This document shows positions 15,301 to 18,300 of a DNA stretch of 64,000 nucleotides, piece after piece. The DNA is taken from assembly GCF_028583425.1 (NCBI RefSeq), contig NC_072807.1, forward strand, positions 30,695,001 through 30,759,000, given 5' to 3'. The DNA comes from Eublepharis macularius. Lineage: Eukaryota > Chordata > Lepidosauria > Squamata > Eublepharidae. The notes under the pieces were generated by a model, which worked only from the letters and a program-made list of their open reading frames with translations, searched no databases and was not told where the DNA came from. Position 1 is the first letter of the stretch. Every line of letters begins with the position of its first letter. The position numbers and the translations under genes are program-made.

Positions 15301-18300
15301 GTGGAAGCTTCTGTTTTCTTTGGATCCTGTATTCGAAAGTGGTTTTGGTCTTGTCTGTGACCTGATCATTGATAGTGCAGGAAGAAAATTCTTGAAAGCA
15401 TTTCCCGTGTTTGGAGGGTTCATTTCCATCCCTGCCAAACCCTGCGCTTTTCAGACATTGCTTCTTAACTAGCTGGAAGGTTAGAACAGCAGTGGCAACG
15501 GCACATATATCTGAGCCTGACCCTCAACCTGCAATTCCAAGTCTAGGGTTGACCCTTGTTCAGTTAGTTCTAGATTAAGCGTTCAGCAAAACCTCCCTCA
15601 TTAAAAGGGACATCTGGAGACCGTTACTCAGACGTTGCCTTTGCAGGTATGTCACCCATCTGATGAAACGCATCCAGAGAGGACCAGTCAGAGGCATCTC
15701 TATCAAACTGCAGGAAGAAGAAAGAGAGAGAAGGGATAACTACGTCCCGGAGGTAAGTTTTGCCCTCACAGGGGGGTTTGTTTTGATGTGTTAGGAGCCT
15801 CCACTCACTTCAGTGCGGCTAGAAATACACAGCTTCGAAAAGCCACGTATAGTTTGTATGCCAGCAACCACCTCCCCAAAGCACAGCTGTCAGAGGGGCT
15901 TGTTGTTGGTTCACATGTTACCTTGTGCAAAGAAACTCTCTGGCCAGAGAACTCAGGTTCTTAAACCATTCCAGTGAATGAGCTAAGTCAGTATGGAGCT
16001 GGAAATGGCATGTTGAACTTCAGATCTGAGTACAAACCTCTGCTTGCTCGTGGAGTGGTCGGGCAAATTTGGGCAGTTGCTGTCTTCTTAACTACATTTA
16101 TTATTCTGTAAAATGGGCTGTGCCGATAGAAGAATGGGCTAAAAATGTTTAGGTGGGGCAGATTTTATTTTGGAGGTTCGTAGTGGGCAAATAACCTTTG
16201 TTGAACCCAGTGCTGATTCCGCACATGTTGGATAATGCACTTCCAATCCTCTTTAGAGATCATTTGGAACTGAATTTTTCGTGTGTGAAACAAAAAATCC
16301 ACTTCCAAATGATTGCTAAAGTGCATTGAAAGTGCATTATCCAACGTGTGCGGAATCAGTGCAGTTCTGTATTTAAAGAATATCCAGAGTTGAACTGGCA
16401 GAGCCCAGCAGCTTTGCATGCTAACAGTGCAGCGAGAACTGTATTTTTCACCCTTGCATACAAAGGGCTGGTCTGTCCCTCCTCAAACCTGCATTCGAAA
16501 GTGATTCTGGTCTTTTGTTTGTGGCCTGGTCATTGATAGTGCAGGAAGAGAATTCTTGAAAGCATTTCCCGTGTTTGGGGGGCCTGTTTCCATCCCTTCC
16601 AAACCCTGGGCTTTTCAGACACTTCCATGTTTTGAGCCGGGTGTGAGATGTTGTGTAATCTGTGCTAGAGAGACTGCTTCAGGAAGCCCTCGTAGTATTG
16701 CTTCTCATATCCACAAACTGTAGCTGCTACGTTCCTGACTGGATGTGTCAAAATGGCTTAGGCACCCAACTTCTCAGTAAACGTATTGTCTTTGTTCTGA
16801 GCTTTTTTCTGCTTTGATTGTATTGAGTCAACGTGAGTGTCTTTCCTGGTTGCCTATAGCTAGTTTCTAGGTTAGGGTTCCTGTCAAACTCAGGCTTAAT
16901 CCAGACTACCATTCCACTTCCTTTAGGCACAGTTTATCTGTTTGCCTGGCTGATCGTTTGAGTCTCTTTCTCCAGTGTGGTGTCTGTGCATTTAGTTACA
17001 GGTGTTGATAGAAACACAGGCCAGGGGCTTCTTCAGACATTTGTCCCCTTGCTGCATAAAGCAGCCCAGTTAATTGTTCCTACTGAAATTAGCCAGTGCC
17101 TAGAGGTGTGGGTGCCTTATCCTCATCAAAAAACATGGCATGGAGAAGGCTAATAAGATATGACTAGAAAGGCATGTTCTGAGATACCTGTTGTGGGAAG
17201 TGCTTCCCTGTTTTTCTACCAATTTGAGATGAGGAATGCAAAAAATCATTGCTTCTGAAAGATGACCTTAATTAGTATAGAGTACATGTCATTGGTATGT
17301 CTTCTAGTTGTAGTATGGAGAAATAAATTCCAGTATGCATTTCCCACCCAACAGGTTGTCTCCTTGTTTTGAAAGCTGGAGGGGGCGGCATTATAATGGT
17401 ACAAATAATGGGCCAAGTGGTATAGCAGCATTTATATAAATGTGTGCTCCCCATGACCAAGGATTTGGTAAACCTGATCCTGAAATTCTTTTTAAAAATG
17501 AGTAGGGGAAATACTTTGAGTGTTCTGGTTGTTTAATGGAACGGTTAAGGCCTGTACTGTGAGATAGTGTCAGAAGCTGTTTGGGGTTGCTGAATTTGGC
17601 TTGACCATTTAAAAAAAAAACACCTTAAATTTAACCTGAATGAGGATATACCCTACCAACCATCACCCTGGGGCCTGCTTGTTGTTTGCCCAAGGGCTCT
17701 GTGTCTTTTTTGGCCTGCTTTAGCTTGGCTAGCCCAAACATCTTCAGTGGAGCTTTTGCGGAGAAGATCAAAGTCTGGCTAAAGACATGCCGCAACACCC
17801 TTTGGGAGCTAAGCAGGTCTGCGACTGGTCAGCCCGTGAACGGGAGGCTTGCTGAGCGCAACAGATCTTTGTAAGTCCGCAGGAGTTCCCCTCACAGCTA
17901 ACAGAGCCACATGGTTGGTTTTTTCCCCCCCAACATCGGGAAGATTTGCATAATCACATCCTCATGCTATTTGTGTGTGGTGTTTCCCCTGAATTTTTTC
18001 TCCTTTTGGCCACGAGAGGACCAAAGTTTTTGTACCACCCCTCAAGTTGTGTAACGTACCAATCATTATTGAGAATGTGTCTTTCGTGTGCGTAGTCTGG
18101 GACCAGTCTGATTGATTACTTGGTTCTTCATCAGGTTTCGGCCCTGGATCAGGAGATCATTGAAGTAGATCCCGACACCAAGGAAATGTTGAAGCTACTG
18201 GTGAGTGAGGAGCTGGGCCTGGCTGCCAGCGGGAGTGCTGTTTGAGGCCAGCCCCCCCCCCCACCTTAAGAACTGCTGCCGGCATGTTTTGTTAGCAGCA

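Follow-up and report, generated by a model that had tools for sequence, protein, structure and literature searches.

Two predicted SNORA71 genes in introns 2 and 3 of RPS17 in the gecko Eublepharis macularius

Introduction

The closest described system is the chicken snoRNA GGgACA8, a 134-nt RNA listed with one isoform as a homolog of mammalian U71a/b/c/d, hosted by 'PRS17 (intron 3)' and carrying in its 3′ pocket a guide of 8+3 nt with 18S-367 as target, according to the parts of Shao et al. 2009 consulted here (PMC2653536). The host label 'PRS17' evidently stands for RPS17. As far as those parts go, the same study included lizard loci in its comparison, gives ~90% of chicken H/ACA snoRNAs as singletons and traces almost all chicken snoRNA paralogs to intragenic duplication, that is, between introns of one host gene (PMC2653536). 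In human, five SNORA71 copies are described in introns of SNHG17, serving 18S position 406 (PMC12776523, preprint, in excerpt), and for 7.3% of H/ACA families all expressed members are reported to lie in one host (PMC8178906, in excerpt). For human SNORA71, 28S-4502 is another site that had been predicted as a target, and in a yeast test SNORA71 failed to modify it, as stated in the available portion of PMC8522698. In Ensembl release 50, annotated SNORA71 loci number 15 in mouse, nine in monkey, two in Xenopus, one each in chicken and platypus, and zero in zebrafish and medaka (PMC2832892, likewise in excerpt).

A literature search pairing SNORA71 with RPS17 gave no match; the names used in the publication on chicken are U71 and PRS17, so that this pairing misses it. 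Among the matches listed, titles and abstract openings do not name SNORA71 in lizard RPS17, which is not proof of its absence in print, and the words SNORA71 and RPS17 occur in neither case in the available text of PMC3349704, PMC5482813 and PMC4792531. Here, we follow up a first-pass annotation of a stretch of 64,000 nucleotides from Eublepharis macularius (NC_072807.1, positions 30,695,001 to 30,759,000, forward strand), referred to below as the window; unless stated otherwise, coordinates are those of the window.

Results

The host gene RPS17

Exons 2–5 of RPS17 were located as follows:

15066..15217, plus strand, RPS17 exon 2 (splice sites, in-frame translation, Pfam Ribosomal_S17e)
15647..15752, plus strand, RPS17 exon 3 (splice sites, in-frame translation, Pfam Ribosomal_S17e)
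18135..18200, plus strand, RPS17 exon 4 (splice sites, in-frame translation, Pfam Ribosomal_S17e)
18539..18619, plus strand, RPS17 exon 5, coding part and stop codon (acceptor, in-frame translation to stop)

These exons have AG/GT consensus splice borders and join in frame into 134 residues followed by a stop codon, and the joined protein scores 223.5 bits against Pfam Ribosomal_S17e (cut-off 22.8). The intron numbers 2 and 3 presuppose a first exon ending at ATG, as we take exon 1 of human RPS17 to do; with this numbering, the 'intron 3' of the chicken entry corresponds to the intron of the second gecko copy described below.

Two similar intronic segments and their family

Both segments of interest are intronic and lie on the sense strand of RPS17:

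15326..15460, plus strand, SNORA71 copy 1, RPS17 intron 2 (Rfam RF00056 match, fold, guide pairing)
16488..16624, plus strand, SNORA71 copy 2, RPS17 intron 3 (Rfam RF00056 match, fold, guide pairing)

Their lengths, 135 and 137 bases, are those given in the first-pass annotation. Their alignment spans 137 columns, 119 of them identical; what separates the copies is 16 substitutions, 13 of which are transitions, and one 2-base gap. How far does this similarity reach? The best local alignment of intron 2 with intron 3 pairs 15326-15457 with 16488-16621, and the flanks of the two copies (30, 60 and 100 bases) share 48-52% identity, a random-like level given 95% points of 54-55% among 300 random pairs of window stretches. 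With the local alignment ending at the snoRNA limits and the flanks at random level, the likeness is confined to the two segments, as had been claimed.

In an Rfam search, proposed earlier as a check on the H/ACA assignment, both segments match the H/ACA family SNORA71 (RF00056), full-length (model positions 1-134 of 134) and above the gathering cut-off of 60 bits: copy 1 with 112.8 bits (E 2.7e-21, at 15325-15457) and copy 2 with 111.7 bits (E 4.8e-21, at 16487-16621). These account for two of the four matches that a scan of the whole window returned at gathering thresholds, and they rule out a new snoRNA family. Used as a DNA query against the 2.24-Gb genome, copy 1 yielded two candidates, both scored and identical with the two copies described here, copy 2 being recovered at 88% identity; since this search passes over very common words, diverged or repetitive copies could escape it. 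A search of the genome with the SNORA71 family likewise gave two places among the 42 scored of 184006 first-look candidates. The DNA search, with both of its places in the window, speaks against many dispersed copies. Judged by their sequence, the two segments are SNORA71 genes in RPS17, a host already reported, and as such additional members of a known family.

RPS17 intron 3 also harbors a transposable palindrome (16208-16364), and one might ask if the copies resemble each other as parts of a transposon, or by mere coincidence, and not as snoRNAs. This is scarcely credible: both copies fit the SNORA71 model end to end, copy 1 as a DNA query recovers just two places in the genome, and the palindrome is separate, without overlap with the snoRNA. 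We therefore reject a transposon reading of the copies.

The palindrome itself consists of 70-base arms that are 87% complementary and occurs, at 96-100% identity, in at least 40 genomic places including the window's own (40 scored of 1960 candidates); we class it as a recent short inverted-repeat transposable element. A less strict Rfam scan of 13500-19000 added four hits, each located at the palindrome and each falling short of its family's cut-off. The best of them, MIR3440, scores 61.4 bits where 105 are required, and on these scores we reject a miRNA reading of the palindrome. Elsewhere in the window, a 5S rRNA-like sequence (55300-55560, minus strand; 48.6 bits in Rfam) recurs in at least 39 other places with 90-93% identity over ~190-210 bases (of 4366 candidates) and is assigned to a dispersed 5S-derived SINE, a type of repeat that we take to be known from lepidosaurs. 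A weak tRNA-like Rfam match at 34410-34468 (33.4 bits, cut-off 29; model positions 7-64 of 71) is probably a tRNA-derived SINE or relic.

Boxes, fold and preserved pairing

The two box motifs of each copy are placed as follows:

15383..15388, plus strand, H box AGAAAA of copy 1 (ANANNA between the hairpins)
16547..16552, plus strand, H box AGAGAA of copy 2 (ANANNA between the hairpins)
15455..15457, plus strand, ACA box of copy 1, 3 bases from the 3′ end
16619..16621, plus strand, ACA box of copy 2, 3 bases from the 3′ end

With these boxes located and two-hairpin folds forming, the order hairpin, ANANNA, hairpin, ACA that the first-pass annotation had described holds for both copies. Folding, another check suggested at that stage, gave two hairpins in each segment, with z = -3.14 for copy 1 (equaled by 0 of 200 shuffles) and a weaker z = -1.89 for copy 2 (equaled by 7 of 200), the latter being only moderately beyond shuffles. 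When the fold of copy 1 serves as reference, 39/39 base pairs are preserved in copy 2 despite the 16 substitutions, in agreement with the earlier statement that pairing is kept; random placement of the same substitutions preserved 34.4 pairs on average and reached 39 in 0.26% of 20000 trials. Five of the substitutions fall in paired columns, each altering one side of a pair, so double-sided compensatory change is absent. Across the 18 columns of guides and boxes the copies do not differ, which has a chance probability of 0.09 and thus is, by itself, a weak point without significance. Both copies appear to be still under selection.

The 3′ pocket and its putative 18S target

Pseudouridine pockets of H/ACA RNAs lie ~14-16 bases from the ACA, and the pocket-to-ACA distance is 15 bases in both copies. 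The guide strands of the 3′ pockets are:

15400..15408, plus strand, left guide strand of copy 1 (ATTTCCCGT), 9 pairs with the own 18S downstream of U366
15440..15442, plus strand, right guide strand of copy 1 (CCC), 3 pairs with the own 18S upstream of U366
16564..16572, plus strand, left guide strand of copy 2 (ATTTCCCGT), 9 pairs with the own 18S downstream of U366
16604..16606, plus strand, right guide strand of copy 2 (CCC), 3 pairs with the own 18S upstream of U366

With 9+3 pairs, the 3′ pocket of each copy is complementary to the surroundings of U366 in the 18S rRNA of the organism itself, whose sequence was taken from the end of contig C67 (first 478 bases). The target scan set the 3′ pocket against these 478 bases, and the RNAs may have other targets in the remainder of 18S, in 28S or through the 5′ pocket; across the 100 U of the stretch scanned, 49 of 20000 shuffled versions of the copy 2 pocket reached 12 pairs. 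In the human 18S sequence as we assume it to be, the identical pocket test finds U406 (66 of 20000 shuffles reaching 12 pairs), and by sequence context we take U366 to be human position 406; the contexts of the two sites differ at the unpaired base following the U. Two rDNA pseudogene-like pieces (L010 and L013) at G000 C10, 87847278-87847514, resemble the 18S 5′ end; they are opposed fragments, ~40 bases apart, with 93% and 90% identity to the 18S query.

Could one copy be active and the other a decaying pseudogene? The weaker fold z-score of copy 2 would fit such a scenario, and in a given vertebrate genome expression is predicted for only about one third of the snoRNAs annotated, with chicken as an exception (PMC10234308, in excerpt). 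Yet the Rfam scores of the two copies are nearly equal, their guide and box letters agree throughout with every pair preserved, and both occupy introns of a ribosomal-protein gene in sense orientation, all of which makes decay of one copy improbable.

Origin of the second copy

The two copies would derive from a snoRNA duplication inside the host gene RPS17. Retroposition, rather than recombination within the gene, is an alternative route, proposed as the main one for mammalian H/ACA copies (PMC8178906, in excerpt), and the sharp break of similarity at the snoRNA limits would be in line with it. It is nonetheless rather unlikely here: the second copy resides within the same host gene, an A-rich tail was not seen by eye at the copies, and for neither copy do the 40-base flanks on its two sides share an exact direct repeat of 7-14 bases, although the traces of an old insertion would have faded anyway. 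In addition, the sources, as far as consulted, regard retroposition as a mammalian route (PMC8178906, PMC2653536), and for chicken they give intragenic duplication as the source of nearly all snoRNA paralogs (PMC2653536).

When might an intragenic duplication have happened? The copy in intron 2 is the sole feature of the locus absent from the parts of the literature examined and may be new; it alone could be lineage-specific. We tentatively propose, at somewhat less than even odds, that it stems from a duplication in the squamate lineage and has since been retained as a functional gene beside the other, the two copies perhaps being used in different tissues.

Discussion

The proposal of paralogous H/ACA snoRNAs in RPS17 introns, made in the first-pass annotation, is supported by the RF00056 matches, the alignment of the copies, their boxes, their preserved base pairs, the guide pairing and the RPS17 exons. 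Its suggestion that the snoRNA might be unnamed or lineage-specific fails for both RNA and host: the RNA is SNORA71, listed in chicken RPS17 intron 3.

We put a probability of roughly 0.96 on the joint reading of the locus as two SNORA71 genes that are processed from RPS17 introns, guide modification of U366, arose as intragenic duplicates and are both under selection. In this scheme, the copies would be excised by splicing together with introns 2 and 3, trimmed to ~135 bases and bound by the dyskerin complex, upon which the second hairpin would pair with 18S rRNA and U366 (human 406) would be converted to pseudouridine. Expression of both copies, and pseudouridylation of 18S by both, are what the SNORA71 family leads us to expect by analogy.

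The find is an ordinary one, since chicken carries SNORA71 in RPS17 too. By its published description, GGgACA8 resembles copy 2 in family, host, intron 3 and use of the 3′ pocket; its 18S site, 367 (8+3 nt), is matched by number to position 366 here (9+3). Whereas one isoform is listed for chicken, the gecko has an extra copy in intron 2. Human SNORA71 (71A-D) is similar to the gecko genes in family, in having several copies across the introns of one host and in 18S position 406, but its host is the non-coding SNHG17 and that of the gecko RPS17. Otherwise a matter of routine annotation, the locus offers a clean example of one H/ACA snoRNA in two introns of a ribosomal-protein gene. Together, gecko and chicken make two species with an RPS17-hosted SNORA71, as opposed to SNHG17 in human, and this difference in host could be mapped on the vertebrate tree.
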